This document shows positions 2,628 through 19,184 of a DNA stretch of 21,125 bases, in pieces. Where the stretch lies: IMG/VR virus record IMGVR_UViG_3300027659_000257, positions 1-21,125 of that record; one strand, 5' to 3'. The stretch comes from a virus. The position numbers and the translations under genes were made by a program. The first letter of the stretch is position 1. Each line of letters starts with the position of its first letter. The notes beneath the pieces were generated by a model. That model made no database searches, had not been told where the DNA came from, and saw nothing but the letters and a program-made list of their open reading frames with translations.

Positions 2628-2913
2628 TGTTATTTCTTTCAGAAATTGCTTTTGCCTTGGCTCGGGCATCTTCTTTAGACGATGCACCCCATGCCTTTAA
2701 AGCAAGTGCCAACCGTGTGGGTTCGCCATTCTTTTCCATTGGGCCATTAGTAGCGCCCATCCGTGCAAGAAAAGATGCACGCCTTGGGTTATCGCCTGAC
2801 TTTACGGGGGGCTTTAGCTTGCCACCTGTTTCCGCTGCATAACTCGCCCGCCCTTTGGCGTTCAACCCGCCTTCAGGGTTTTTACCTTCTTTGCGAGTCC
2901 ATGCGGCAGTCAT
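2620..2913 (-). CDS. Small basic phage protein, DUF6321-like
   Basis: A 97-aa Lys/Arg/Gly-rich protein beginning MTAAWTRKEGKNPEGGLNAK. It contains KPPVKSGDNPRRASFLARMG (about residues 34-53) and an Ala/Lys-rich C-terminal helix, SSKEDARAKAKAISERNN. This order of motifs matches, from memory, DUF6321, a family of short phage proteins of unknown function usually found beside terminase and portal genes. The conserved RRASFLARMG core and strong positive charge would suit DNA or RNA contact, but no catalytic motif is visible. Its ATG overlaps the preceding stop by 4 bp (ATGA) and its stop overlaps the portal start by 8 bp, so it is translationally coupled in the packaging operon. Confidence 0.8.
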   Translation of the reverse strand: MTAAWTRKEGKNPEGGLNAKGRASYAAETGGKLKPPVKSGDNPRRASFLARMGATNGPMEKNGEPTRLALALKAWGASSKEDARAKAKAISERNNNG

Positions 2914-3065
2914 TTGTTCTCAGGCTTTGCAGTCTTAGCGGCTTGTTTAAAATCTTTGTCGGTAGGGGCGTCTTTACTGCCCACTTTGTTCATCTTTTCG
3001 CCTGAACCCGCCTTGATTCGCTCTTGTTTTGCCAAAATATTGGCATAAAGTCCTGCTTTAGACAT
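2910..3065 (-). CDS. Small conserved phage protein, 51 aa
   Basis: The product reads MSKAGLYANILAKQERIKAG, then SGEKMNKVGSKDAPTDKDFK, then a Lys/Ala-rich tail ending PENK. I recognise this pattern (LYANI.AK..RI..GSGE.M...GSK.APT...FK..AKTAK) from many phages, where it stays uncharacterised and often lies next to a DUF6321-like gene, as it does here. It is basic and soluble with no membrane segment. It begins 2 bp after the stop of the upstream structural gene, and its TGA overlaps the next ATG (ATGA), so the four small genes between terminase and portal read as one coupled block. Confidence 0.8.
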   Translation of the reverse strand: MSKAGLYANILAKQERIKAGSGEKMNKVGSKDAPTDKDFKQAAKTAKPENK

Positions 3066-3067
3066 GA

Positions 3068-3379
3068 TTAAGCCGAGAAAATGCCAACACCCAACACCTC
3101 AACACCCGCACCTGTGGTGATTTTCCATGCGCCATTTTTTGATCTGGTGTTGAACTCGATGTTATAAACGCCAATGCCATCGCCAGGCGAGTTAGGCAAC
3201 ACCACATGGCTAGTACTGCCATCAAGGACGGTAACAGTGCCTGTTGCGGCAGTTGATACAGTGCAAACTATGCGGTGAAGATAATCACCTATTGCGCCTG
3301 TGCCACCCAATATTTGCGCAGTTTGACTTGCGGCAACGTGTTCGTATTGGTAGCGGTAAGGGTCTGTTGTTCCACTCAT
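3068..3379 (-). CDS. Small beta-rich structural protein (head decoration or similar)
   Basis: A 103-aa protein rich in Gly, Thr and Val with alternating hydrophobic residues (HRIVCTVSTAATGTVTVLDG, then VVLPNSPGDGIGVYNIEF), which suggests a beta-sandwich with no enzyme motif. The N-terminus contains YRYQYEHVAASQTAQILGG. Proteins of this kind occur between terminase and portal in related phages and are usually called structural or hypothetical. A capsid decoration or stabilising role is inference. Its ATG overlaps the terminase stop by 4 bp. It resembles the 123-aa protein at 18072-18443 in size and beta-rich composition, but the sequences do not obviously align. Confidence 0.68.
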   Translation of the reverse strand: MSGTTDPYRYQYEHVAASQTAQILGGTGAIGDYLHRIVCTVSTAATGTVTVLDGSTSHVVLPNSPGDGIGVYNIEFNTRSKNGAWKITTGAGVEVLGVGIFSA

Positions 3380-4716
3380 ATTCGATTACTCCTTGCGGTT
3401 TGTTTGTGGATTGCCCACATATCGTTCATTGTGACTTCGTTTTCAGGGCCAACAATCAACACTTTACTTGGGTCAGGCGGTTTAACTGTGGGTTCTTCCC
3501 GCCAACTAATTGCTAACATCCTCATGGCATCAGCGGGGTGACTTGTCCAATCATGCTTGGGCGTTTGCCTAAAAGCCTTCTTGTCCTCATCGTACTCACG
3601 CTGATACTGTCTCAAAGCCTCAATGCCATCTGCGCATTTCTCAGCATCAAACCAACATCTAGGCAACGCCATGCGCACCGCTTGGATGCCATCTTGAACC
3701 GTCAAACTAGGCACAATCGCCAAGTTGTTAATGCCCAAGTGCGCTGCCATCTGCTCAATTACTGACTTCCCACCGCTTGCCAAAGTTCTAGCCCTTGCAT
3801 CATGCGGTAGGTAGTGCTTTCCGTAATTGTAGGGTTTTTCTTTGATTTTTGCCACAAATTCTTCAATTGTTCCACCAGAAAGGGCAAAAAAATCAACAAT
3901 ATGAATTTCACCCGCAATGACTTGATACCACCAAATTGCCGTGTCATCGGTGTGGCCTAAGTCCCAAGCCGTGTGTGTCTTGACTTCAATTTGGTTCTCA
4001 ACTTTAGTGATGCGCCCATCTTCACTAGCCCTACGCATCTCAGTTCCCCATATTGCGCCAACAATTGCCGCCTCAAAGCTGCACTCATACTCTTGCAAAT
4101 ACTGATCTTCTGCTAGTTGTGCTTGCGCTGCTTGTAACTCTGATTCGGGCAATAACTTGGATTTACTGGCGGGCAATGACAAGGTAAACCACTCATTTGG
4201 TAGCTTTCTGCTTGTCTCGTAGATGTCCCAAAACTGATTTTTACCCTTGGGCGTGCCACCAAAGACGCACCAGCCCTGTTTGTCAGATAAGGCGGGCCTC
4301 ACCACGTTACCCCAAACACTAGGCTTAAAGTCGCCATATTCATCAAGGTAAAGGCCATCAAAGCCTAAACCACGCATGGCATCGGCATTGTCTGCACCAA
4401 ATAGCCTAATCTTTGCACCGTTTAACAACTCAATGATTAAGTCGGCCTCATTACTTTGCTTAGTGATGGGACGGGAAAAGTATTTTAGATAGTCCCACGC
4501 CACGCTCTTAGCTTGGCTTCTATACGGGGCAACATACCCAAACAAGGGCATGGGGCTTTTGCAAGTGATTGCCGCCCTGATAAGGTCATTGATGGCCGCC
4601 ACGGTCTTACCCGCCCTTCGGTGAGCTACTAAACAAGCCCACCTCTCGGTTCTAGCGTGAAACTCCCTAAACTGCTTTCTAGGGCTATAAGGTATTTCTA
4701 TGATTCCGCTTGCCAT
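3376..4716 (-). CDS. terL: Terminase large subunit
   Basis: A 446-aa ATP-driven DNA packaging motor and nuclease. The ATPase domain shows Walker A, AHRRAGKT (residues 31-38), and Walker B, GLYLDE (121-126), followed by the GGTPKGKN coupling-type motif (153-160). The C-terminal nuclease has an acidic metal-binding start, TAWDLGHTDDT (249-259, Asp252 and Asp257/258), and a late acidic motif, HPADAMR, near the C-terminus, as in RNase H-like terminase nucleases. The length is normal for the family. It overlaps terS by 19 bp and the next gene by 4 bp. The sequence alone does not show whether packaging is headful or cos. Confidence 0.96.
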   Translation of the reverse strand: MASGIIEIPYSPRKQFREFHARTERWACLVAHRRAGKTVAAINDLIRAAITCKSPMPLFGYVAPYRSQAKSVAWDYLKYFSRPITKQSNEADLIIELLNGAKIRLFGADNADAMRGLGFDGLYLDEYGDFKPSVWGNVVRPALSDKQGWCVFGGTPKGKNQFWDIYETSRKLPNEWFTLSLPASKSKLLPESELQAAQAQLAEDQYLQEYECSFEAAIVGAIWGTEMRRASEDGRITKVENQIEVKTHTAWDLGHTDDTAIWWYQVIAGEIHIVDFFALSGGTIEEFVAKIKEKPYNYGKHYLPHDARARTLASGGKSVIEQMAAHLGINNLAIVPSLTVQDGIQAVRMALPRCWFDAEKCADGIEALRQYQREYDEDKKAFRQTPKHDWTSHPADAMRMLAISWREEPTVKPPDPSKVLIVGPENEVTMNDMWAIHKQTARSNRI

Positions 4717-5581: not shown

Positions 5582-5897
5582 TCGGAATTGGGACATCTTT
5601 GGGCCATAGATTATTTTCAACCAAGTTATCCACGGTGCTTTGATGGGCTTTTTGCCACATTTTTTTGCGTTCATCCTTGGATAGATGCGCCCCTTGGTCT
5701 ATTTCGTAATGGCATTTGAGGCACAAAGCCGCCACTAGGTTGTCATCGGCCTTGATACTTTTACCCTTGCCACCACCCCAATTGCTGTGAGCCGCTTGAA
5801 CCCCGTTATCTATGCCACAGTTTTGACAGGCTAAACCCGCTACTAGCTTTAGGAGTTTCTGGCTTCTCACATACTGATGCTTCAAATATTGTGTCAT
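5577..5897 (-). CDS. HNH-type nuclease, YbcO/DUF1364-like
   Basis: A 106-aa protein with a zinc-bound HNH-like core: Cys24-x2-Cys27 (CQNC), AAHSNWGGGKGKSIKADDN (about 35-53, with His37), then LCLKCHYEID (58-67) giving Cys59, Cys62 and His63. This matches the small YbcO/DUF1364-type phage nucleases. They are often in nin-like regions with recombination genes, as here with NinB and RusA. Homology as I recall it begins around YVRSQKLL (residues 9-16), so GTG at 5870 or TTG at 5885 are alternatives to the ATG at 5897. None has a clear ribosome binding site. Any of these starts overlaps the upstream zinc-ribbon gene in another frame by 65-92 bp. Confidence 0.8.
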   Translation of the reverse strand: MTQYLKHQYVRSQKLLKLVAGLACQNCGIDNGVQAAHSNWGGGKGKSIKADDNLVAALCLKCHYEIDQGAHLSKDERKKMWQKAHQSTVDNLVENNLWPKDVPIPI

Positions 5898-6027
5898 CGG
5901 TTATTGCATATTCTCTTGTTAGGTATTTATGTCCATCAGCGCAAATTCGCCTTCTGAGGATAAATTCAGGGTTTGCCCTAGTGTCTAAAACTTTGTTATG
6001 GCGGGTTTTGCATACGGGACACATCAT
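5806..6027 (-). CDS. Zinc-ribbon protein, NrdR N-terminal-like
   Basis: A 73-aa protein. MMCPVCKTRHNKVLDTR and ILRRRICADGHKYLTRE resemble the NrdR zinc ribbon (CPxC...DSR...RRRxxC..C..RFTTYE). The metal ligands appear to be Cys3, Cys6, Cys29 and His33, with His replacing the last Cys. The ATP-cone domain of true NrdR is absent, so it is not a full nucleotide-reductase regulator. A nucleic-acid-binding role is likely. The last 25 or so residues (FEASVCEKPETPKASSGFSL and beyond) lie over the start of the HNH gene in another frame. Its ATG overlaps the upstream stop by 4 bp. Confidence 0.72.
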   Translation of the reverse strand: MMCPVCKTRHNKVLDTRANPEFILRRRICADGHKYLTREYAITDDTIFEASVCEKPETPKASSGFSLSKLWHR

Positions 6028-6656
6028 GTGTGTTTTTCCTCAATGTCATAAAACCAATCATCGCCCGCTGACCATTTGCGTGTGCCATCTACCGTCCAAA
6101 GTCTTTGTGCGGCTTTAAAATCGGGGTGTTTTGTTTCTGAGGGAATCAGGCTTTGGTCATACCACAAACATCGGTTATTGGGCTGACAGGCAAATTGCCC
6201 ATTGTCCAACGCAATAAAGTTAAAACTCTTATGTTCTTCGGCCTGTTCGGTAAAGCCCGTGTCAAGCTCCATGCCATCAGCGCAAAAGTCCACGGTAAAC
6301 AAATATCGCCCAAAATGCCATTGTTTATCCTTGCCTAAAAACTTAACACCTAAGTTTCGCAAGCCAATTTTCTCAAGAATTGTAAACTTGTAACCCATGC
6401 AATCCCATAACTGCAAGGTGTCTATAGGCAAATTACCCGCATCGGTATGCCAAACATAGGCATGGATGGGTAGCTTGTCATACAAAGCCCCATATGCGGG
6501 TAGTAGTGATTCTATGCGGAATACTTGACCCCTCAAGGCTTTAAGACTTACCCATATTGCGGGTTCTAACTCACCATGCCCCTTGTGATCGTTGTATAAA
6601 AACTCACGTTTTACAAAACATTTCATGGGGGGTAGGGATGCAATGATGTAACTCAT
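6024..6656 (-). CDS. Conserved phage protein of unknown function, 210 aa
   Basis: A soluble 210-aa protein rich in aromatic residues, with FVKREFLYNDHKGHGELEPA near the start, WVSLKALRGQVFRIESLLPA, then HAYVWHTDAG and LPIDTLQLWDCMGYKFTILE. I have an impression of similar proteins in betaproteobacterial phages but can name no domain. No transmembrane segment, P-loop or clear catalytic triad is visible. The start at 6656 is supported by AAAGGA upstream and an ATGA overlap with ninB. An internal Met11 (6626) lacks a ribosome binding site. It lies in the nin-like block among nucleic-acid enzymes, so a role in DNA metabolism or host takeover is possible. Confidence 0.75.
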   Translation of the reverse strand: MSYIIASLPPMKCFVKREFLYNDHKGHGELEPAIWVSLKALRGQVFRIESLLPAYGALYDKLPIHAYVWHTDAGNLPIDTLQLWDCMGYKFTILEKIGLRNLGVKFLGKDKQWHFGRYLFTVDFCADGMELDTGFTEQAEEHKSFNFIALDNGQFACQPNNRCLWYDQSLIPSETKHPDFKAAQRLWTVDGTRKWSAGDDWFYDIEEKHT

Positions 6657-10050: not shown

Positions 10051-10132
10051 AATTATCCAAACCTTGATTGAGTGCGTGTTAGCCATCATCATTTTTGGCG
10101 GCATTGGTGTATTACTAGCTTGGAGAGGCTAA
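10040..10132 (+). CDS. 30-aa single-pass membrane protein
   Basis: The product reads MKSKIIQTLIECVLAIIIFG then GIGVLLAWRG: two Lys at the N-terminus, a hydrophobic helix of about 20 residues and a Trp-Arg-Gly end, as in an inner-membrane micropeptide. It overlaps the previous gene by 11 bp, and its TAA shares one base with the next ATG (TAATG). Such exact packing supports a real gene. Function unknown. Confidence 0.7.
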   Translation: MKSKIIQTLIECVLAIIIFGGIGVLLAWRG

Positions 10133-10317
10133 TGATTGAACAACTTAAAGATTATTTCCGTTTGCCATCAGCTAAAGAACTAGCGGTTTCAGAACTTGAA
10201 ATGGCTCACCGTAAGCTGCTAGTGGCTCTCAGCGCCCAAGAATATGCAAAGCGTATGTGTGACTACCACTCAGACCGAATCAAACGCCTCACGGCTTATT
10301 TAAAGGAAGAAGCATGA
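10132..10317 (+). CDS. Small conserved phage protein, 61 aa, helical
   Basis: The product reads MIEQLKDYFRLPSAKELAVS, ELEMAHRKLLVALSAQEYAK, then RMCDYHSDRIKRLTAYLKEE and A. It is almost wholly helical and amphipathic. The pattern LPSAKELA..EL..A...LL.A.SA.EYA......Y...R..RL is one I recall from many phages, next to recombination genes and without known function. The frame is open from 10072, but the ATG at 10132 follows directly on the previous stop (TAATG). It overlaps the annealing-protein gene by 4 bp (ATGA). Confidence 0.75.
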   Translation: MIEQLKDYFRLPSAKELAVSELEMAHRKLLVALSAQEYAKRMCDYHSDRIKRLTAYLKEEA

Positions 10318-10868
10318 ACGTCCAAGAACTACTCAAACTGAATGTCAATGAACATACAGAAAAGAAAGCAAATTTAACCTATCTGTCATGGGCTTGGGCA
10401 TGGGCTGAAGCACTTAAAGCTGACGCTAAAGCTACGTTCAAAGTGGAAATGTTTGGTGACAAATGTTTCATGGACATTAACGGCACAGCAATGGTGTGGG
10501 TCACAGTCACCATGTTTGACAAGCCAATGACTTGCCAACTACCCGTGATGGATCATCGCAACAAGGCTATCCAAAGCCCTGATGCCTTTCAAGTCAACAC
10601 AGCAATCATGCGCTGCATGACCAAAGCACTTAGCTTGCATGGCCTCGGTCTATACATCTACGCTGGAGATGATATTCCGCAGGGTGAAGAACCCGAGTCA
10701 ACCATTGACCCAAACAGCATGACAGAATTATTCTTAGCTATCCACAACGCTAGTACACAAGATGAACTGAAACTAGCCTACAGAGTAGCTTATGCGGCTT
10801 GTGATGGTGACAAGGGTTGGCAGATTAAAGTAATTGCAGCAAAAGATGAAGCAAAGGGGAAATTATGA
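10314..10868 (+). CDS. DUF1071 / Sak3-like single-strand annealing protein
   Basis: A 184-aa recombinase that should anneal complementary single strands made by the neighbouring exonuclease. DUF1071 features are LTYLSWAWAWAEALKADAKA (about residues 21-40), MFGDKCFMDINGTAMVWVTV, TCQLPVMDHRNKAIQSPDAF (77-96) and VNTAIMRCMTKALSLHGLGL YIYAGDDIP (98-126), the conserved core with the Lys-Ala-x-x-x-His-Gly-Leu-Gly motif. The family is grouped with Sak3-type phage annealing proteins. The C-terminal 50 residues are variable, as usual. It overlaps both neighbours by 4 bp and forms a Red-like pair with the exonuclease. Confidence 0.9.
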   Translation: MNVQELLKLNVNEHTEKKANLTYLSWAWAWAEALKADAKATFKVEMFGDKCFMDINGTAMVWVTVTMFDKPMTCQLPVMDHRNKAIQSPDAFQVNTAIMRCMTKALSLHGLGLYIYAGDDIPQGEEPESTIDPNSMTELFLAIHNASTQDELKLAYRVAYAACDGDKGWQIKVIAAKDEAKGKL

Positions 10869-11491
10869 TTGAAATGATTGAACAACGCTCAGACCAATGG
10901 TTTGCAGCACGAATTGGTAAGGTCACCGCATCCCGTGTGGCCGATGTGCTTGCCAAGACTAAAACGGGCTATTCAGCAACCCGTGACAACTACATGGCTC
11001 AATTGGTGTGCGAACGCCTAACGGGTGAAAAGGGGGAAAGTTTTACCAATGCCGCCATGCAACACGGTACAGACACAGAACCCCTTGGAAGAGCTGCGTA
11101 TGAGGCTCTTAAAGACGTTTTAGTAGATGAAGTGGGGTTTGTACCCCATCCCTCAATCATCATGGCGGGTGCGTCCCCTGATGGCCTTGTGGGGGATGAT
11201 GGTCTATTAGAGATCAAATGCCCTAACACCGCAACGCACATTGAAACTTTGCTGTCTCAGACAGTGCCAGGCAAGTACAACACCCAGATGCAGTTTCAAA
11301 TGGCTTGCACAAATCGTAGTTGGTGTGACTTTGTGTCATTTGATAACCGCCTACCCCAAGAGCTTCAATTGTTTGTTAAACGTGTTCCTCGGGACAATAT
11401 GTATATCAGACTAATGGAAGAAGAAATTGTCAAATTCTTAAATGAACTTGATGTAAAAATTGCTCAACTTATGGAAATTAAAAATGTCTAA
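10865..11491 (+). CDS. YqaJ / lambda-type exonuclease
   Basis: A 208-aa nuclease of the PD-(D/E)XK superfamily that should resect double-stranded ends. Motifs are QRSDQWFAARIGKVTASR (7-24), AMQHGTDTEP (64-73, His67 and Glu72) and AGASPDGLVGDDGLLEIKCP (101-120), giving Asp106 and Glu116-x-Lys118. The start at 10865 has GGGGA upstream and overlaps the annealing protein by 4 bp (ATGA). Met4 (10874) is less likely. Length is close to lambda Exo (226 aa). With the annealing protein it forms a complete two-component recombination system. Confidence 0.93.
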   Translation: MIEMIEQRSDQWFAARIGKVTASRVADVLAKTKTGYSATRDNYMAQLVCERLTGEKGESFTNAAMQHGTDTEPLGRAAYEALKDVLVDEVGFVPHPSIIMAGASPDGLVGDDGLLEIKCPNTATHIETLLSQTVPGKYNTQMQFQMACTNRSWCDFVSFDNRLPQELQLFVKRVPRDNMYIRLMEEEIVKFLNELDVKIAQLMEIKNV

Positions 11492-11723
11492 AATTTACGA
11501 AATCACCGTTGTTTCAGGTAAATACAAAAACAAAGATGGTGTGGAAAAATCACGCTATCAAACCATTGGATCGGTCATTGAGACTAAGAACGGCCCAATG
11601 CTCAAGTTAGACGTTATTCCTTTGCCTGATGGCGGTTGGAACGGTTGGGCTTATCTCAACACGCCCAAGCCTAAAGAGGACTACAAAGGTCTGCCACGGG
11701 ATGAGGAAGAAATCCCATTTTGA
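11484..11723 (+). CDS. Small SSB-like protein with acidic IPF tail
   Basis: A 79-aa protein: MSKIYEITVVSGKYKNKDGV, then EKSRYQTIGSVIETKNGPML and LKLDVIPLPDGGWNGWAYLN, followed by a Pro/Lys-rich linker and the end PRDEEEIPF. The alternating beta pattern fits a small OB-fold. The acidic tail with a terminal Ile-Pro-Phe closely resembles the C-terminal tip of bacterial SSB (DDDIPF) that recruits partner proteins. A role as a minimal phage SSB, or as a decoy for SSB partners, is inferred from this tail and from its place right after the annealing protein and exonuclease. The frame is open from 11460, but the ATG at 11484 overlaps the exonuclease by 8 bp and is preferred. Confidence 0.7.
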   Translation: MSKIYEITVVSGKYKNKDGVEKSRYQTIGSVIETKNGPMLKLDVIPLPDGGWNGWAYLNTPKPKEDYKGLPRDEEEIPF

Positions 11724-11804
11724 TTAACGGGGGGAACGCTGTTTTTTACTTTTTTGAAAGCTAGTAGGCGAGCAGCCAGTACCCCCACCCACTTAGGAAC
11801 AATC

Positions 11805-12125
11805 ATGGATTACAAAAGAATGTTTGACAGAATATTTCCCGAATTCCCAAGAGTCAGAGCCAATGACCCCGTAACGTCATTTGAGGCAGCGGAGTTGATT
11901 AAAGACGCTGTGTCTCAGCACCACCAAACCATTTTGAATTGTCTCCAAAAACACGGTGCTTTAGGCAAAGATGGGATTTCAGCCCGTACAGACCTTGACA
12001 GCAATCAGGTTGCTAGGCGTTTAAATGAAATGAAAGTCATTGGGCTTATCCAATTGACAGGCAACACCGTGAAATCTAATTCAGGCAGAAATGAAAGAGA
12101 ATGGCAATGTATCCAATCGGACTAG
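11805..12125 (+). CDS. Winged-helix DNA-binding protein
   Basis: A 106-aa protein: a short N-terminal part (MDYKRMFDRIFPEFPRVRAN), then DPVTSFEAAELIKDAVSQHH and a winged-helix domain, QTILNCLQKHGALGKDGISA RTDLDSNQVARRLNEMKVIG LIQLTG, with recognition helix SNQVARRLNEM and a basic wing (VKSNSGRNERE). The NDPVTSFEAA opening is typical of small phage proteins of this kind. It probably regulates transcription or binds DNA ends. The frame is open from 11754, but the ATG at 11805 has AGGAA upstream. An 81-bp gap with a G-run (GGGGGG) and no convincing hairpin precedes it. Confidence 0.78.
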   Translation: MDYKRMFDRIFPEFPRVRANDPVTSFEAAELIKDAVSQHHQTILNCLQKHGALGKDGISARTDLDSNQVARRLNEMKVIGLIQLTGNTVKSNSGRNEREWQCIQSD

Positions 12126-12286: not shown

Positions 12287-12467
12287 CTTGGTTGCATTGC
12301 TACGCATGACAGGCGTTCAAGAAGCCTCTATAGAGGCCGTATGCGCTGCTTATGACGCTGGTTGGAACGATGCCCTTGACGATTACGCAAAACGCTTAGA
12401 GGCGCTTTCTTTTGGCAAAGACACAATAGACAGTTTTAGCGTGTTTATCAAGTCAGCTAAGAAATAA
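12273..12467 (+). CDS. Last gene of the rightward operon, unknown, 64 aa
   Basis: An acidic helical protein: MTKDDLVALLRMTGVQEASI, EAVCAAYDAGWNDALDDYAK, then RLEALSFGKDTIDSFSVFIK and SAKK. AYDAGWNDALDDYAKRL recalls the AY..GW.DAL motif found in many short phage proteins encoded beside replication genes. No function is known to me. It overlaps the zinc-finger gene by 14 bp. Its 3' end overlaps the endolysin gene of the opposite strand by 15 bp with no terminator between them. Confidence 0.75.
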   Translation: MTKDDLVALLRMTGVQEASIEAVCAAYDAGWNDALDDYAKRLEALSFGKDTIDSFSVFIKSAKK

Positions 12468-12956
12468 AACCACTTCTGCTTTGCGTCTTTTGACAAGCCC
12501 TGAAATTTCTTTTCCACCCGCTTTTGTCCAACTCATAAAGGCTTCAGCAGCGCCCTCCCAATCACCACGGTTAACTTTCATGCGAATGGTTGACCTTTGG
12601 TAGTTGCCTAGACCTGCGTTGTACGCAAAAGATGTAACAGCGTCGAATTTGCTTTGATGACTAGCAAGATTAGGAGAAAGTCGAAGAACACCACGTTCAA
12701 AAGTATCGATGTCACTTTTGAACAAATTGACCAATTCATCTTTAGACCAAACACGGGCATCCCCTTCTTTTAGTTGATAGTCAGACCTTATCAATCCTGT
12801 GTAACCCTCTTTTCGCACGTTGGGTAGGTTTAATTGGTCTGGGTACATTGCGTGTCCCCATCCCACCGTCCAAATTGCGGCACTGCACCGATACGGTTTA
12901 GCCCTGTAGCCTTCAAAGAAGTGCATCAGATGTTCGCCTTTTTCGCTGATTTTCAT
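12453..12956 (-). CDS. Endolysin, GH24 (T4/P22-type) lysozyme
   Basis: A 167-aa muramidase that cuts cell-wall peptidoglycan. FFEGYRAKPYRCSAAIWTVG WGHA (13-35) is the GH24 active-site region. Glu15, Cys24 and Thr30 keep the E-8aa-D/C-5aa-T spacing of the catalytic triad, with Cys in place of the T4 lysozyme Asp20. SFAYNAGLGNYQRSTIRMKV (about 108-127) and the C-terminal SGLVKRRKAEVVLFL are further family signatures. There is no signal peptide or signal-anchor helix, so export should need a holin. It overlaps the upstream holin-like gene by 4 bp (ATGA). Confidence 0.95.
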   Translation of the reverse strand: MKISEKGEHLMHFFEGYRAKPYRCSAAIWTVGWGHAMYPDQLNLPNVRKEGYTGLIRSDYQLKEGDARVWSKDELVNLFKSDIDTFERGVLRLSPNLASHQSKFDAVTSFAYNAGLGNYQRSTIRMKVNRGDWEGAAEAFMSWTKAGGKEISGLVKRRKAEVVLFLS

Positions 12957-13456
12957 TTCTTAGCCCAACTTCTACTTCCGAACCAAAATCCTATAATTCC
13001 CCCCAACATGGCCATTTCATCAGAACTAAAAATAACGTCAGTAACCCTAATCAGATCATCCATGTTGTTGACCAAATTAGGTCTGCTGTAAACATAGTAG
13101 GCAATCCATGCGTTGATTGCACACAACTCAAAAATAAAGATGTAAGTAACAATAGGTCTTACAGTACCAACAAAGTTAACCACCCAAGTGCTTGCCTTTT
13201 CCATAATCTTTTCATCATGTTTTAAAGCAGCCTCTGTCATTTGGGCATCAGTCTGCATGGCAATTTGGTCTGTACGAATCTCCTCCATACGCTCTTGAGC
13301 TGCAAAGCCTTGAGCCATCATCTGTAGCTGTAACTCTACTTGAACCCTAGCCAAAGCAAGTTCATGCCTTTGGTCATCTTTGTTTTGGAAGTAATCAAGA
13401 AGTTTGGGTAAGCCTGAAATAAGCAAACCACCAAGGGTAGAAAATAAAGATAGCAT
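12953..13456 (-). CDS. Holin-like membrane protein (3TM / GTA-holin type)
   Basis: A 167-aa protein with an N-terminal hydrophobic stretch (MLSLFSTLGGLLISGLPKLL), a long coiled coil (about 25-90, rich in Gln, Met and Ala) and two C-terminal hydrophobic segments (VTYIFIFELCAINAWIAYYV and MAMLGGIIGFWFGSRSW). This order resembles the three-TM holin family first named for gene transfer agent release. Directly upstream of the endolysin (4-bp overlap), it is the best holin candidate, releasing the enzyme through the inner membrane. The long internal coiled coil is more than a minimal holin needs. Confidence 0.75.
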   Translation of the reverse strand: MLSLFSTLGGLLISGLPKLLDYFQNKDDQRHELALARVQVELQLQMMAQGFAAQERMEEIRTDQIAMQTDAQMTEAALKHDEKIMEKASTWVVNFVGTVRPIVTYIFIFELCAINAWIAYYVYSRPNLVNNMDDLIRVTDVIFSSDEMAMLGGIIGFWFGSRSWAKK

Positions 13457-13605
13457 TACAGTCCAATCATTCCAAGTAATTTATTAACAATCTTGTCCGA
13501 CAAGTCATCAGGCAAAAAGCGAAGCAGTCCAAGCACCCACCAAGCAATGCAAAGCCTGACAAAAACTTTGAGAAAAAGGTCAAATTGCTTTTGGTACTCA
13601 TTCAC
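13456..13605 (-). CDS. 49-aa membrane-associated protein with GTG start
   Basis: The product reads MNEYQKQFDLFLKVFVRLCI, AWWVLGLLRFLPDDLSDKIV, then NKLLGMIGL, with one hydrophobic segment (about residues 11-31) and an amphipathic C-terminal helix. The GTG start overlaps the upstream stop by 4 bp (GTGA), and the TAA shares one base with the holin ATG (TAATG). That exact fit makes it convincing although it lacks an ATG. A different frame of the same DNA, from ATG 13601, lacks this fit. It may be an accessory holin or antiholin; this is inferred only from size and place. Confidence 0.72.
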   Translation of the reverse strand: MNEYQKQFDLFLKVFVRLCIAWWVLGLLRFLPDDLSDKIVNKLLGMIGL

Positions 13606-14096
13606 CGCCCACACCTTGTTTTGGCGCACAAATTGGTTATTTCAGCAATACCCCATCCTATTGCGCCAATAAACATCACAATAATAACAACGGCAACCGC
13701 CCATTGCATTTGTTCGGCTTCAGCTTCTTTTTGTTTTTTTTCCTCAGCTTTGGCTTGCCTTGCTAAATGAGCATCTTCAATGTCCATTTGTTGCTGACGC
13801 TCTTTAATCTTTTGCCATACGTCTATGCGGCCAGATTGCATAAAAAGCATCTGTAATTCCGCTTCAAAGCGTTTGGCCTCATCCAAAGCCATTTCAATCT
13901 GTAACGCTGTTCCTAAGTTGGATTTATTGCCTGACCGTTTGGCCTCAACCATTGCCTTTGTTGCAACGCTTTTAGCGTCAAACATCTTGGCAATCATGGG
14001 GGTCAGACCCGCTAGATCGTTAGCGACCTTGCTTGCTTTTTTAACAAGCCCTATGGCGGTTTGTAGCCCTTCTAGCGCTGTTATGGGGTCTATCAT
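13602..14096 (-). CDS. Membrane-anchored coiled-coil protein, lysis cluster
   Basis: A 164-aa protein: N-terminal MIDPITALEGLQTAIGLVKK, then a helical region with LTPMIAKMFDAKSVATKAMV, a long charged coiled coil (about 70-130; KIKERQQQMDIEDAHLARQA, KAEEKKQKEAEAEQ) and a C-terminal transmembrane helix, WAVAVVIIVMFIGAIGWGIA. I recall proteins with this layout beside lysis genes in other environmental phages, without assigned function. It could be a spanin-like or tail-lysis connector, but no lipobox or outer-membrane part is visible in it. The frame is open to 14126. The ATG at 14096 has GGAG directly upstream and an ATGA overlap. Confidence 0.7.
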   Translation of the reverse strand: MIDPITALEGLQTAIGLVKKASKVANDLAGLTPMIAKMFDAKSVATKAMVEAKRSGNKSNLGTALQIEMALDEAKRFEAELQMLFMQSGRIDVWQKIKERQQQMDIEDAHLARQAKAEEKKQKEAEAEQMQWAVAVVIIVMFIGAIGWGIAEITNLCAKTRCGR

Positions 14097-14248
14097 CTCC
14101 GTACAACCTTTTCCCACTGTAGGCAAACAACTTTGCGGTTATAAACATCACCCGTCCATGCCCACCGTACACATCGATATTCAGTTTTCTTTTCTTGGCT
14201 AGATGCTAACAATGTAAAAAATATTGGCAAAATTATTAGCCATTTCAC
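14093..14248 (-). CDS. Small exported protein, 51 aa, with two cysteines
   Basis: With a GTG start at 14248 the product reads MKWLIILPIFFTLLASSQEK, KTEYRCVRWAWTGDVYNRKV, then VCLQWEKVVRR. Residues 1-18 form a typical signal peptide. Cys26 and Cys42 could form a disulfide in the periplasm. The C.RWAWTGDVYNRKVVC.W motif is one I have seen in environmental phage proteins. The frame is open to 14329, but the GTG overlaps the previous stop by 4 bp (GTGA) and gives a signal peptide. Its location in the lysis cluster would suit a spanin-related or superinfection-exclusion role; this is inference. Confidence 0.68.
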   Translation of the reverse strand: MKWLIILPIFFTLLASSQEKKTEYRCVRWAWTGDVYNRKVVCLQWEKVVRR

Positions 14249-14337
14249 GGCATTGCCCAAAGGATAATGTGACCGCACACCATGACAAAACAAAGAAGAA
14301 AGGCTAGAGCAATAATAGCTTCTAGCCAATCCATCAT
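14245..14337 (-). CDS. 30-aa single-pass membrane protein
   Basis: The product reads MMDWLEAIIALAFLLCFVMV then CGHIILWAMP: a short acidic N-terminus and about 22 hydrophobic residues. It is tiled exactly, with ATGA overlap to the upstream holin-like gene and GTGA overlap to the exported 51-aa gene. ATG 14334 would remove one Met. It may be a lysis accessory. No family is recognised. Confidence 0.72.
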   Translation of the reverse strand: MMDWLEAIIALAFLLCFVMVCGHIILWAMP

Positions 14338-14558
14338 TTTTTAAGCCACGTTTGCCAGATAGCGCCAGCAGCCATGATTAACCCACCCACCCAAAGAATA
14401 GGCTTGGCGGCAGAGGCAATCCATCCCAAGACTTTAAAAGCCCCTTGCAAGGCATCAAAAGCCTCTACAAGCCCTTTTGTGTTCTTGTCTATGCTATCTA
14501 CCTTAGTCTCTACTTCAAGCAGTCTCTCGTAGATTTGAGCATGAGTTACTTCTGACAT
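14334..14558 (-). CDS. XhlA-like membrane protein, possible holin partner
   Basis: A 74-aa protein with a coiled-coil N-terminal half (THAQIYERLLEVETKVDSID KNTKGLVEAFDALQ) and a C-terminal hydrophobic half (WIASAAKPILWVGGLIMAAG AIWQTWLKK). This layout, a short heptad coil followed by one membrane helix and a basic tail, resembles XhlA/haemolysin-type holin partners. It begins right after the stop of the kinase fusion gene and ends ATGA into the next small gene. With the 167-aa protein it gives two different holin candidates in one cluster. Confidence 0.7.
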   Translation of the reverse strand: MSEVTHAQIYERLLEVETKVDSIDKNTKGLVEAFDALQGAFKVLGWIASAAKPILWVGGLIMAAGAIWQTWLKK

Positions 14559-15344
14559 TTAGACACCCATTTGTTTTCTTATTTTGGTTGCTGAAATAGC
14601 GTGAGTAGCATTGTCAAAAGATTCCTGTTCAATCTTATAACCTACATCTCTGCCATAGGTGATATTAACAATATTTGGTACAAGTTGAATTTCATATTGA
14701 CCCTGATACAAAGGGTCAAGATCACGCTTGATAAAGTCTTTGACTTGATTAGCCGCAAACGGGTTTGAGCCGTTCCACCCCTGACAGTCTCTGATCTGGA
14801 TAACCACTTGACCAGTTTTAGCTAATGCTCTCTCAAACAGCTTACGATGGCCTTCATGCCAAGGTTGCCATCTGCCAAGCATCTGAACAGTCTCTTTCTG
14901 CCAATCAAAGACAGGGCGTTGGCGGTCATCCAAGATGTGTGCGGCAATAAACTCACCCCACTTTTCAGCCTTTTGCTCGGTAATTCTAAAATCGTACTGT
15001 TCAGGCGCAACAAACACCTTGTTGGTATCTTCAAAGCGGCCTTGGTTAATGGTGTCAACCCAAACAGTCCAATCAGCTTTAAAGTTGTTGCGCATTTCAA
15101 CCAATGGGGCAACAAAGTCGCAGATTACATAATCTACATCGTAGCTGTCAGCAAGTTCACGCATCCGCAAGCTCTGACGAATACGGCCTTCATGCGAAAA
15201 ATCCCAATCGTTGTATTTCTTACGCACATCATCAGCGTTCAACCACATAACTGTTTTGCGGTTGCTTTGCAAGTGGTCAAGAATATGCTGTGCAAGGTAA
15301 GTTTTCCCAGCACCAGGCAAGCCCATGATTAGAATTCTTTTCAT
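14559..15344 (-). CDS. APS-kinase-like / nucleotidyltransferase fusion
   Basis: A 261-aa two-domain protein. Residues 1-150 form a P-loop kinase resembling adenylylsulfate kinase (CysC): Walker A GLPGAGKT (8-15), LNADDVRKKYNDWDFSHEGR (35-54, matching the D-x-x-R and FSxxxR substrate regions) and CDFVAPLVEMRNN (75-87, like FISPFRxxR). The usual Asn after FSxxxRxxN is not conserved. Residues 155-261 form a cytidylyl/adenylyltransferase: GRWQPWHEGH (157-166) with the HxGH site, GWNGSNPF (189-196), GRD (231-233) and ISATKIRKQMG (250-260). The order kinase then transferase is that of animal PAPS synthetase, but the second domain looks closer to NMN adenylyltransferases. It overlaps a sulfotransferase gene by 4 bp. 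Confidence 0.82.
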   Translation of the reverse strand: MKRILIMGLPGAGKTYLAQHILDHLQSNRKTVMWLNADDVRKKYNDWDFSHEGRIRQSLRMRELADSYDVDYVICDFVAPLVEMRNNFKADWTVWVDTINQGRFEDTNKVFVAPEQYDFRITEQKAEKWGEFIAAHILDDRQRPVFDWQKETVQMLGRWQPWHEGHRKLFERALAKTGQVVIQIRDCQGWNGSNPFAANQVKDFIKRDLDPLYQGQYEIQLVPNIVNITYGRDVGYKIEQESFDNATHAISATKIRKQMGV

Positions 15345-16162
15345 CCCTTAACCTTATAAAGTTGTTTCATTGCAAACTCAGGTGCGGGTGTGCGCCAAAA
15401 GTCTTTACCACTGTACTTTTCCCATACAGACTTAGGAAGAATAGATGGGCGTTCTACCCATGTTACTTCTTTCCTAACTGTGTGCAGACTTTTCATGTTC
15501 AAGGCTTTATCATAAACCTCGTTCTCATACTCAACATTCTTAAAGTCATGGTCAAAGTAAGGCTTGCCAATAAACCCATAAATCTCACGCATAACGCTCT
15601 CAGGCTTTTTGCATAAAGATTCATACTCCACCAACATAATCATGTCGGGGTTTAACAGTAAACCTTCTTCTAGGAAGTAATAAGGCTTGACCACTTGGCC
15701 TTCCTTCTTTACATCCATTAGGGCATCGCATCTGGTTGTGACTGTCTGCCGTGCTTCGTCATCTGTGAGGGTCGCACCATACAAAGAGTTCTTGGCAGCA
15801 ATACGCTCAAAGCTGTCCAGTATCCAAGGCAAATCACGCACACAGCAAATAATCTTTGTCTGTGGGTACAAGTCTTTCAATAAAGAAGTCTTAGAAGTCC
15901 AACCCCTGCTAGTGTCAAACACTACATTTGGCGTGACTGCTTTGTAGTAAGCGTTAATCAAGTCTTTAAGTATTTGCTTGCGTCTGTCTTCATCTACTAG
16001 GTGATTGCTCTCACTTCCCGTAATAACATTGATGGTCGATGCCACCAAGCCTTGTACGGGTGAGGATATATCTGCATAGAACTCAGGGTTTTGACGCAAG
16101 ATAGCCGAGAGCAGGGTTGAGCCTGACCTTGGTAAACCTGAGATAAAGTAAAACTCTTTCAT
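15341..16162 (-). CDS. PAPS-dependent sulfotransferase
   Basis: A 273-aa protein of the sulfotransferase family (Sulfotransferase_3-like). The 5'-phosphosulfate-binding loop is FISGLPRSGSTLLSAIL (6-22). The 3'-phosphate motif is IICCVRDLPWILDSFERI (104-121), with Arg109 and Ser117. FDTSRGWTSKTSLLKDLYPQ (82-101) precedes it. It should move sulfate from PAPS to a hydroxyl on sugar, lipid or protein. No signal peptide is present, so it acts in the cytoplasm. It lies between the adhesin genes and the kinase fusion with ATGA overlaps on both sides, so the pair probably makes and uses the sulfate donor and targets a phage fibre or cell-surface precursor. Confidence 0.88.
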   Translation of the reverse strand: MKEFYFISGLPRSGSTLLSAILRQNPEFYADISSPVQGLVASTINVITGSESNHLVDEDRRKQILKDLINAYYKAVTPNVVFDTSRGWTSKTSLLKDLYPQTKIICCVRDLPWILDSFERIAAKNSLYGATLTDDEARQTVTTRCDALMDVKKEGQVVKPYYFLEEGLLLNPDMIMLVEYESLCKKPESVMREIYGFIGKPYFDHDFKNVEYENEVYDKALNMKSLHTVRKEVTWVERPSILPKSVWEKYSGKDFWRTPAPEFAMKQLYKVKG

Positions 16163-16593
16163 GCTTGAGCAGTCTGGGCAACCCAGTTAACTGTAGCTTC
16201 GTCCCATTGATAGCGAACATTGCCACCGTTCATAACGGCATCAGCGGGTCTTGCTACGGGTGCGGCCCATGTCATTGTGTCCAAGTAACCAATCCAAGAT
16301 GGATAAGGTTTGCGAGCTTCATGCTCAATAACTTTGGCTGCATTAAATTCTGCTTCTGTTAAGACTTGCAAAACACCCGCAATGGTAGTGTCGGCATCGT
16401 CATCACAAGTGCCATAGTATTTAGGCGCACGTAGGTATGTGCCATCAGATGCTGTGGATACAGGCCATGTAGAACTGTCGTGCCATAAATGAGTCCAACC
16501 TTTGATGGCTGGCATGGATGGGCCTGTGCGCTGTGGCTCAGAAGTGCAGACTATTTTAGTTACTGCGTCTACTTCGGTAATGCAAATGTACAT
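16159..16593 (-). CDS. Tail-fibre-associated protein, unknown, 144 aa
   Basis: An acidic, Trp-rich protein (MYICITEVDAVTKIVCTSEP at the start; WTHLWHDSSTWPVSTASDGT; YPSWIGYLDTMTWAAPVARP; then NGGNVRYQWDEATVNWV). It has no enzyme motif. It lies just downstream of the twin adhesins, where fibre-assembly chaperones or fibre tips are often encoded, and the W-x-W-rich C-terminal part fits either. I cannot choose between them. AAGGAG precedes its ATG, and its end overlaps the sulfotransferase start by 4 bp. Confidence 0.6.
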   Translation of the reverse strand: MYICITEVDAVTKIVCTSEPQRTGPSMPAIKGWTHLWHDSSTWPVSTASDGTYLRAPKYYGTCDDDADTTIAGVLQVLTEAEFNAAKVIEHEARKPYPSWIGYLDTMTWAAPVARPADAVMNGGNVRYQWDEATVNWVAQTAQA

Positions 16594-16613
16594 TGTGATG
16601 CTCCTTATAAAAT

Positions 16614-17333
16614 TTAAACTGCAACTCTGCGGATGGCACGGACATGGGTTGAATAGTTTTTAAACTTGAAGTAATACTGGTATCCATTACTAAAGTCCTG
16701 ACTCCATGCGTAAACCGCAGAAAACTCAGTACTAGACCAGTAAGTGACACCCGTAAATTTTTCTGCGCCTGTACTTCTAAAATCGGTAGCTGACGTTTGC
16801 GATGGTGTTCCAGCCGTGTAATTACTTGCTCTTGCAGGGACTGCATTTGCATTTATGCCGTATGATGTATTGTTACTTGTTGTCGTTGGTTTCAAGTTGT
16901 AGTAACACACTTCCAACTCGTTTTTCGCTGGCATATACCAATCACTAAACCCACCAATGGTCAAACCTTCACAGAACTGTGCGGCAGGATGGCTTGCATT
17001 ATTCATCGCTGTACTATTAGCAGGCCCGTCAATTACTGATGTTGTACCAGCAGTTGTTGTATTAGTTGTTTTCCATTGTTTACTTGTTTGTTGTGCGGAT
17101 GCTACTGGCCCAACTACTAAGTTGTAATCAGCAATGCTATTACCAGCAGTTGAAATTTGCCCTGCAAAAAAGCCGCCACCAAAAGCCTGACCAATAACTA
17201 ATGGAGGACTGGGCCATAACCCTTGCTTCTGTAACTGCATAGCTTGGTCAATAGTCCACATCCCACTAGCCGCAGAACTTGTTGGTGCTACAGGGCTTTT
17301 AGTAATAAACCCGCCTGGATATTTTTGGCTCAT
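16614..17333 (-). CDS. DUF1566/Lcl-domain tail adhesin, copy A
   Basis: A 239-aa probable receptor-binding protein. The N-terminal half is Gly/Ser/Thr-rich (SAASGMWTIDQAMQLQKQG, PPLVIGQAFGGGFFAGQI). The C-terminal half is a DUF1566 (Lcl C-terminal) domain, a C-type-lectin-like fold: FCEGLTIGGFSDWYMPAKNE (120-139), LEVCYYNLKP, then YWSSTEFSAVYAWSQDFSNG and the ending VRAIRRVAV. It has the same length as the next gene upstream (17343-18062) and aligns with it almost end to end, so the two arose by duplication. AAAGGA precedes the ATG. The last 45 residues look like the variable regions of diversity-generating retroelement targets, but no reverse transcriptase is in the window. Confidence 0.8.
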   Translation of the reverse strand: MSQKYPGGFITKSPVAPTSSAASGMWTIDQAMQLQKQGLWPSPPLVIGQAFGGGFFAGQISTAGNSIADYNLVVGPVASAQQTSKQWKTTNTTTAGTTSVIDGPANSTAMNNASHPAAQFCEGLTIGGFSDWYMPAKNELEVCYYNLKPTTTSNNTSYGINANAVPARASNYTAGTPSQTSATDFRSTGAEKFTGVTYWSSTEFSAVYAWSQDFSNGYQYYFKFKNYSTHVRAIRRVAV

Positions 17334-17342
17334 GGTTGTCCT

Positions 17343-18062
17343 TTAAACTGCAACTCTGCGGATGGCTCGGACACGATATGCAGAATTCTTATTAAAGTTG
17401 TAGTTTTGACTGCCGTTGCCTAAATACTGTGACCATCCTTGTGTTGCAGATTTTTCGGTACTAGTCCAATAAAGTTGGTCTGTAAAAAATTCTGTTCCAC
17501 TAATATTTATAAAGGCCGAAACAGTAGTTTGTGCTGGGTTTCCAGAAGTATAGTTACTTGCTCTGGCAGGGACAGCGTTAGCGTTTATTCCTGAAGAAAT
17601 ATCGTTAGCTGTTGTTGTTGGTTTTAGGTTGTAATAACAAACTTCTAGTTCGTTTTTAGCGGGCATATACCAATCTGAATAACCGCCAATAGTTAACCCT
17701 TCACAAAACTGAGCCGCTGGATGACTTGCATCGTTCATTGATGCACTATTAGCAGGGCCATCAATGACTGAAGTTGCGCCAGCATCGCTTGTGTTTGAGG
17801 TTTTAAATTGCAACGCAGTGCTGGCAAATGCAGATGCTTTAGGCCCAACAACAAGGTTGTGTGTGGCAACACCGCTAACCCCAATTTGCCCTGCATAAAA
17901 ACCACCAGCGTAGGCTTGACCAATGACAAGAGGTATCCCTGTCCAATTTCCAGCAGCTAACGCTTGTAACTGTTGTGGAAGTGTCCATACCCCACTAGCA
18001 GCACTAGTAGAAGTTGTTGGGGCAGTAGCGGAAATTACACCGCCTTTGTATCGCATGGACAT
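17343..18062 (-). CDS. DUF1566/Lcl-domain tail adhesin, copy B
   Basis: A 239-aa paralogue of copy A. The shared core includes SVIDGPANS, HPAAQFCEGLTIGG, SDWYMPAKNELEVCYYNLKP and GINANAVPARASNYT. The region just before the C-terminus differs (YWTSTEKSATQGWSQYLGNG against YWSSTEFSAVYAWSQDFSNG in copy A), and both end VRAIRRVAV. Codons differ at many silent positions in the core, so the copies are old and kept by selection on the protein. The last 24 nt including the stop are identical in the two genes. AAGGA precedes the ATG. Two fibres could give a two-receptor host range or a mixed trimer. Confidence 0.8.
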   Translation of the reverse strand: MSMRYKGGVISATAPTTSTSAASGVWTLPQQLQALAAGNWTGIPLVIGQAYAGGFYAGQIGVSGVATHNLVVGPKASAFASTALQFKTSNTSDAGATSVIDGPANSASMNDASHPAAQFCEGLTIGGYSDWYMPAKNELEVCYYNLKPTTTANDISSGINANAVPARASNYTSGNPAQTTVSAFINISGTEFFTDQLYWTSTEKSATQGWSQYLGNGSQNYNFNKNSAYRVRAIRRVAV

Positions 18063-18071
18063 GGGTAGTCC

Positions 18072-18443
18072 TTATGTGATTTCTTCAAAGCTAATCGTAG
18101 CAACCAAGTCACCAGCCGCACTAGCTAGCGCACCAATTGATTGATTTTCTAGCAAATAAAACGCTGTAGTTTTGTCAGACACAATCAATGAAGCATCTGC
18201 GGGGACTGAAATAGTTGAGGCTATGGCTAATGCCGTACCGCCCAAAGCTGCCGCAGAGTAGATATTTACAGTGACATCAGCCGCAGATGTGCCATCAATG
18301 TTAGCAATTAAGATTGTGTTAATCTTAAATACTTTGCCACTTGATGCAGCGTTTGAGGCCAATTGCGTTGCACTTGTACCAACAGCAACAGATAAAGAGT
18401 TGCCAAGAATACTTGTTACGTTGACGATATTAGGATTTGCCAT
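18072..18443 (-). CDS. Small beta-rich structural protein, 123 aa
   Basis: A Ser/Ala/Thr/Val-rich protein (VTSILGNSLSVAVGTSATQL, VFKINTILIANIDGTSAADV TVNIYSAA, STISVPADASLIVSDKTTAF YLLENQSIGALA) with strictly alternating hydrophobic residues, as in an all-beta sandwich. Similar small proteins occur next to tail-fibre genes of environmental phages and are taken as virion decoration or tail-fibre proteins. No catalytic motif is seen. AAGGAA lies upstream of the ATG. Confidence 0.7.
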   Translation of the reverse strand: MANPNIVNVTSILGNSLSVAVGTSATQLASNAASSGKVFKINTILIANIDGTSAADVTVNIYSAAALGGTALAIASTISVPADASLIVSDKTTAFYLLENQSIGALASAAGDLVATISFEEIT

Positions 18444-18452
18444 AATAGTTCC

Positions 18453-19184
18453 TTAAAAACCAAAGATCATTGCAAATGCAATGGATTTGCCTGCTGTAAT
18501 GCCAGAAGCTGCGGGGGTTGTTGACTGCCACGTTGTGCCGTTACTGGTCAGCACATTTCCGCTTGTGCTAGGTGCTACAAACAAAGGTGCGCTTGTCCCA
18601 TTTCCCAAGATAACATTGTTAGCCGTGAGGGTTGTTAGGCTTGTACCACCGTTTGCAACTTGCAAAATTGATGGGTTAATCAATTGAAACCGAGTTCCAT
18701 CGTATTCAATTAGATAAAGTTGACCACTTACAATATCACCCGCAACCAAAGCGGTTGTGCCTGATTTTGTAATGCTTTTAGCGCCCAAACTGTTTAGGTT
18801 AATTGTGGCTGCGCCCGTATTTGTAGCAACTGCAACAAAAGAGAACAAATTGCCTGTAGCATAAGCAGTAATGGCGGGCGCTAAAGTACCCGTCAATGTG
18901 TCTGTGCCTGAAACCGTTGCAATAGTGGTTGCACCCGCTTGCAATTGACCATATTGAGCCGCATCAGTAGCCGCAGAACCCGCACCTAAACCTGTAATTT
19001 TAAACGTCCCCATCGGAATGTTCGCAGTAGGTGTGGTTTGTCCATCTTTGGTCAACGCAGTGGTTAAACCTGAAGCCAAATCAGCAGTCAGCAAATTAAA
19101 TGCCGTGCTAGTGATGGTTGTGCCTGTAACAACGGGTTGACCCGCTGTGTTGATATTGAACGTGCCCGTACCGTTGTAACTCAT
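18453..19184 (-). CDS. Tail-fibre-like structural protein, 243 aa
   Basis: The start, MSYNGTGTFNINTAGQPVVT, with TTITSTAFNLLTADLASGL and TKDGQTTPTANIPMGTFKIT (about 45-64), is a recurrent pattern in phage tail fibres, with the GQ...MG..KITGL phrase as in fibre shaft or anchor domains. The middle is Thr/Ala/Gly-rich beta repeats (ATNTGAATINLNSLGAKSIT), and the C-terminus has the GNVLTSNGTTWQSTTPAASG motif that commonly precedes a receptor or attachment tip. The last residues, SIAFAMIFGF, are hydrophobic. It likely forms the fibre base or shaft that carries the adhesins downstream. AAGGATA is upstream of the ATG. Confidence 0.78.
   Translation of the reverse strand: MSYNGTGTFNINTAGQPVVTGTTITSTAFNLLTADLASGLTTALTKDGQTTPTANIPMGTFKITGLGAGSAATDAAQYGQLQAGATTIATVSGTDTLTGTLAPAITAYATGNLFSFVAVATNTGAATINLNSLGAKSITKSGTTALVAGDIVSGQLYLIEYDGTRFQLINPSILQVANGGTSLTTLTANNVILGNGTSAPLFVAPSTSGNVLTSNGTTWQSTTPAASGITAGKSIAFAMIFGF

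Follow-up and report, generated by a model that had tools for sequence, protein, structure and literature searches.

The two tandem adhesins of this phage, here called A and B, are with a probability of roughly 0.78 former targets of a diversity-generating retroelement (DGR) that now make up a small fixed set of binding heads, the element itself being gone from the phage. We favor this reading because complete DGRs are present on close syntenic relatives and no reverse transcriptase (RT), Avd or template repeat (TR) is found in the window, that is, in the whole linear virus record of 21,125 bp (probably an incomplete genome) that was analyzed; and because of the codon imprint in A and in the RT-less relatives as a set, the deletion scars in relatives, and their frozen variable regions (VRs). 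Against it stand the lack of a scar in the window itself, the near absence of an imprint in B, and the incompleteness of the record. The initial annotation had compared the C-terminal ends of the pair to the VRs of DGR targets: with respect to fold, layout and ancestry (syntenic DGR loci, structure match) this view of the family is right, whereas activity at the present day is probably wrong, as no DGR was found.

The adhesin pair and its predicted fold

Among the other genes of the window are a terminase gene, a portal gene and tail-like genes; Rhodoferax phage P26218 has a terminase with 44% identity to the one encoded here. The features of the region, in the direction of transcription, are as follows:

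18453..19184, minus strand: 243-aa tail-like gene with a conserved N-terminus, upstream border of the exchanged module
18072..18443, minus strand: 123-aa gene, upstream neighbor also in relative L005 (51% identical there)
17343..18062, minus strand: adhesin B, 239 aa, Lcl_C/DUF1566, first of the tandem pair
17355..17474, minus strand: stretch of B homologous to DGR VRs, LYWTST...VRAIRR, 40 codons, aligned to the VR and TR of L005 and L048
17334..17342, minus strand: 9-nt spacer between B and A, AGGACAACC, with the likely ribosome-binding site of A inside it
16614..17333, minus strand: adhesin A, 239 aa, Lcl_C/DUF1566, second of the pair
16626..16745, minus strand: stretch of A homologous to DGR VRs, TYWSST...VRAIRR, 40 codons, with a DGR codon imprint
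16594..16613, minus strand: 20-nt spacer between A and the 144-aa gene, site of avd-TR-RT in DGR-bearing relatives
16159..16593, minus strand: 144-aa gene, which in relatives follows the adhesin or the DGR cassette
15341..16162, minus strand: sulfotransferase gene, part of the same syntenic block as the 144-aa gene

The description of A and B as tandem 239-aa DUF1566 proteins holds: they lie 9 nt apart on the minus strand, and both pass the Pfam cut-off for Lcl_C (DUF1566), with 44.7 and 42.6 bits against 34.9. Equally correct were the fixed C-terminal frame (YW.STE.SA...WSQ...NG.Q.Y, then VRAIRRVAV) with all the residue differences listed between its fixed positions, the identity of the final 24 nt, which include the stop codon (the 25th nucleotide differs), and the silent differences, which are present throughout, C-terminal part included. 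The shared 24-nt end is not peculiar to this pair, the last 27 nt being conserved across the family (on average 20.2 of 27 identical between phages and 21.6 within an array). Gene conversion from twin to twin was considered as the source of the identical end and rejected, given this family-wide conservation and the small excess within arrays. The aligned bodies of A and B share 70% DNA identity and differ in 59% of shared four-fold codons, and the two genes are therefore old paralogs. They fall on separate branches of a tree of the domain core in which most forks are weakly supported, A near L095, L098 and the DGR target L005, and B nearest to L017; the silent differences between them are explained by this placement, A and B not being copies written from one template.

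The AlphaFold2 model of A is of moderate confidence (mean pLDDT = 68, pTM = 0.69). Foldseek against the PDB gave nothing at E ≤ 0.001, the best match (0.002) being the Legionella Lcl domain; with a second structural aligner, from which the following Z-scores derive, the model matches the C-terminal domain of Lcl (8q4e) with Z = 11.6 over 126 residues at 24% identity, and the Bordetella phage Mtd (1yu1, 1yu2, 1yu4) with Z = 5.5 over about 113 residues at 11–13% identity. The model thus places A among the C-type-lectin-like folds, and its VR lies on the C-terminal strands. Among bacteria, the adhesin's best relative, 57% identical, is in a gammaproteobacterial MAG. A and B are best read as phage receptor-binding heads, their location on the tail and host binding being suggested by family and position; together they would probably provide two binding specificities, which is the presumed purpose of the two copies.

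DGR loci and deletion junctions in related phages

The closest RT-bearing relative found, L005, whose adhesin is 67% identical in amino acids to both A and B, carries a complete DGR: adhesin at 1084-1806, Avd-like gene at 1829-2188, TR at 2319-2444 and RT at 2447-3574. Of the 126 positions compared between its VR and TR, 23 are different, each of them at a TR adenine, and the TR has asparagine codons at sites that are variable in the adhesins of the window. In a second DGR lineage (L046, L048, L049 and L108) 20 of 21 VR/TR differences are at TR adenines. The Avd and the RT pass the Pfam cut-offs for bAvd and RVT_1, respectively, and the RT contains the motifs LPIGNLSSQ and YVDD, which we take to be consistent with RTs of the DGR type. 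The order adhesin, avd, TR, RT is found at about twenty distinct loci, in most of which the 144-aa gene comes next; at every RT-bearing locus read, the target is followed immediately by avd, TR and RT.

The gene order 243-aa-like, 123-aa-like, adhesin, X, 144-aa gene, sulfotransferase, kinase is common to L005 and the window; X stands for avd-TR-RT in the former and for adhesin A in the latter. In L048, too, avd-TR-RT takes the place that A has in the window. The distance from the last adhesin to the 144-aa gene is correspondingly 20 nt in the window versus about 1,750 nt in the DGR loci. By homology, and by the gene order shared with the DGR loci of L005 and L048, A and B belong to the DUF1566/Lcl_C family of DGR targets. 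A locus with several targets also exists: in L306 (6841-9986) three tandem VRs are served by a single TR, from which they differ at 12, 16 and 17 positions, all TR adenines, and this arrangement is a possible forerunner of the RT-less tandem arrays.

The initial annotation had seen neither an RT nor a template repeat in the window, and the searches agree with it. The RVT_1 profile matched no RT in the 21 kb, tblastn searches with the L005 Avd, RT and TR peptides returned nothing, and the only VR/TR-like repeat is that of A with B, with no TR or further VR copy. The 20-nt spacer behind A has no avd or RT remnant and is too short for an Avd gene at its usual site, and no deletion scar of the cassette was recognized in the window, scars being seen in relatives only. 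Nor was an RT found in 50 backbone or neighbor-gene relatives, five of them 31.7–32.9 kb long; backbone relatives that carry the adhesin family and have no RT include L226 (a 32,260-bp record) and G001 (27.9 kb). A search of 150 whole records for RT gave 5 positives, from two lineages. Few backbone relatives carry this adhesin family because the stretch from the 243-aa gene to the lysis genes is an exchanged host-recognition module of which the family is one of several contents. When window positions 12453-19184 are compared with the close relatives L204-L236, the injection-type protein is 85–98% identical and the part running from the 243-aa gene to the lysis genes is almost entirely different. 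The sulfotransferase (15341-16162) is 78–93% identical in several related phages while the adjoining adhesins change; the gene that follows it, 14559-15344, codes for a protein combining an APS-kinase-like P-loop portion with a cytidylyltransferase-like one.

At the cassette site behind the target, relatives show eight different deletion junctions between avd and RT. The 167 nt past the last adhesin of L034 begin with the first 86 nt of an intact cassette, fused to its nt 1660-1736; over the two halves the identity is 96%. The other junctions are these:

L107: 26 aa of avd, then the RT tail
L445/L446: 23 aa of avd, RT 344-373
L448: short avd start, RT tail read by eye
L449: 18 aa of avd, RT 351-375
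L430: 47 aa of avd, RT tail read by eye
L438: whole avd, RT 324-366
L441-L443: 52 aa of avd, RT 319-366, target more distant

None of 400 shuffled scars matched. Shorter remnants of the cassette are present in L057, L080 and L109; L072 and L104 were too weak to be counted as scars. Over 23 codons compared with the TR of the relative L071, the VR that precedes the scar has no mismatch at 43 non-A sites in either L034 or L448, with mismatches at 7 and 12, respectively, of the 26 A sites, and this pattern indicates that diversification preceded the deletion. Among RT-less orthologs (L016/L017, L004/L006/L007, L018/L019) the VR residues are unchanged and silent sites change, at a body DNA identity of 87–96%. 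On this comparative evidence phages have more than once discarded the cassette while keeping the variants that it wrote.

Two or three of these adhesins are found at 72 of 123 loci (some contigs being counted twice), mostly spaced by 8 or 9 nt, and only in L034 do traces of avd or RT occur among the arrays. The first adhesin ORF of the scarred L034 array (5895-6560) stops early, at 221 aa and short of the variable region; tblastn places the remaining adhesin domain directly behind it, so that a broken copy heads the array. Past the kinase of the same locus, the ORFs at 10088-11813 were read by eye as cytidylyltransferase-, cupin-, phosphatase- and carbohydrate-kinase-like, and look like parts of a sugar-nucleotide pathway.

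It could be argued, as a sub-variant of the favored reading, that the lineage of the window never had the cassette and that its array was built by module exchange from written copies of DGR-bearing phages. The placement of A and B on different branches, the swapping, in close relatives, of the segment bounded by the 243-aa gene and the lysis genes, and the conserved gene ends and 8–9 nt spacers are in accord with this scenario, which we nevertheless regard as rather unlikely: no pair of RT-less genes was found in which a common VR is joined to clearly different bodies, as VR swapping would produce, and the present state that it predicts is the same as that predicted by loss in place.

Third-base imprint of the template

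The asparagine codons of the TR (AAC or AAT) mark the variable sites, and since a DGR alters their two adenines and spares the third base, the resulting codons are of the type NNY. At TR-AAY columns, the third base is a pyrimidine in 153 of 154 codons of intact DGR targets and in 587 of 644 codons of 46 RT-less genes with VRs of equal length. When only four-fold codons of the RT-less genes are considered, 217 of 242 (90%) are pyrimidine-ending at TR-AAY columns versus 2978 of 5577 (53%) in the bodies of the same genes (bootstrap range over genes 0.855–0.935 for the former), related sequences being counted in these codon tests as partly independent. At the single lysine column (AAR in the TR) only 4 of 20 codons of the RT-less genes end in a pyrimidine. 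The discordance between genes with respect to pyrimidine or purine is 0.19 at TR-AAY columns versus 0.43 in the bodies, saturation being at 0.50. The choice of C or T as third base also agrees with the TR column by column, but a permutation of column labels, a fair test here because the sequences share ancestry, is only moderately significant (16/1000). Taken as a set, the RT-less relatives clearly carry a DGR codon imprint. Silent divergence drops from 0.61 to 0.46 at the VR border; this step includes the last codons, past the TR homology, and a DGR alone is therefore an insufficient explanation for it. Tyrosine occupies 20% of the variable sites of the adhesins, as opposed to 1 in 16 for random NNY codons. 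A rule by which the imprint is stronger in the last copy of an array was rejected, the difference between that copy and the others being only a trend (+1.2 of 10, p = 0.083, n = 13).

With respect to the window itself, A shares its third base with the TR of L048 in 12 of 14 columns (a hand count from the codons; 9 of 10 in the reduced set), and over 23 codons A has mismatches to the TR at 5 of 43 non-A sites and 11 of 26 A sites (Fisher p = 0.007). B has drifted much further from the TR pattern, with 3 of 10 third bases matching. On these counts A looks like a former DGR product, and B may be either a drifted one or a gene that never was.

These results can be weighed against a reading in which A and B are ordinary paralogs that were never DGR targets, with the scaffold dictated by the fold and the variable sites produced by positive selection for host binding. 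The age of the two genes, the variation in loop length among RT-less genes, and the lack of adenine bias in B (mismatches at 12 of 43 non-A versus 10 of 26 A sites) are what one would expect from it, and for B alone it could hold. For the pair we consider it improbable: selection on the protein leaves unexplained the four-fold pyrimidines at TR-AAY columns and the purines at the AAR column, the nearest members of the family are DGR targets, and scarred loci exist. We give equally little credence to a DGR that is still active, with its RT and TR in an unsequenced part of the genome or acting in trans from another replicon, so that A (perhaps also B) is still being rewritten. The record is incomplete, A keeps its imprint, and trans-acting DGR components have been argued for in Thiohalocapsa (PMC10907252); however, the site directly behind the target, occupied in all RT-bearing loci read, is empty in the window, the 50 relatives surveyed (including those of 31.7–32.9 kb) have no RT, the frozen VRs of RT-less orthologs argue against rewriting, in trans included, and several non-A sites of both A and B depart from the known TRs.

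If A and B are former targets, the following sequence of events may be envisaged. In DGR-bearing members of the family, with avd, TR and RT directly behind the target gene, cDNA of the TR, carrying random bases at adenines, overwrites the 3' end of the gene. A would have been written in this manner by a DGR within its own ancestry, after which the lineage either lost the element or received A already written; in the phage of the window the element would be lost, the scaffold and the diversified sites being kept as a fixed pair of variants inherited in the normal way. A broader proposal, which we offer tentatively and with more doubt than conviction, is that aquatic phages write heads by DGR, repeatedly delete the element near-completely, and stack the written heads in arrays. 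If this were true, the generator of diversity and the fixed repertoire of several heads would be alternating states of one locus.

Comparison with known systems

DGRs are usually detected through their reverse transcriptase, and targets that outlive it are overlooked; a codon test based on third-base pyrimidines at template-asparagine sites recognizes such targets with neither RT nor TR at hand. The junctions show that hypermutation has been lost repeatedly and its products retained; phages with versus without the cassette thereby allow direct tests of what it costs to carry a DGR and of how much a fixed repertoire of several heads is worth for host range. Several components of this picture are already known: DUF1566 DGR targets, DGRs with multiple VRs, broken DGR loci in a bacterium, and a crAss-like target without a DGR. 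Within the part of the literature covered, we found no report of recurrent near-complete excision of the cassette in phages with surviving imprinted targets.

According to PMC6642488, no Pfam domain is more common among DGR targets than DUF1566, and there are multi-VR DGRs that include DUF1566 ORFs. A and B resemble these targets in their domain, C-terminal VR, scaffold residues, gene order shared with element-bearing relatives, and tandem arrangement; they differ in that searches of the window yielded no RT, Avd or TR, the two copies are divergent, and the imprint is seen in only one of them. With Legionella Lcl and Bordetella phage Mtd the likeness of A is one of fold, the former being a bacterial collagen-like adhesin and the latter a protein targeted by an active DGR. 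Tentaclins and other two-target phage DGRs (PMC10743442) resemble the window in combining two target proteins of the lectin type in a single phage, but those are two protein types served by an active element, as opposed to two members of one family without an element.

Degenerate DGR loci have been described in the bacterium Thiohalocapsa PB-PSB1 (PMC10907252), where target genes likewise stand at loci whose RT or other machinery is missing or broken. That bacterium, however, has intact DGRs elsewhere and transposons at the loci, whereas the present phages show near-complete cassette deletions at one conserved site, with no RT found elsewhere. Finally, as cited in a review (PMC8867640), a tail collar target of crAss-like phages is conserved in phages without a DGR. 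The case is similar in that the family is retained by DGR-less phages, and different in that the present family has a codon imprint and deletion junctions, which give the direction of change.
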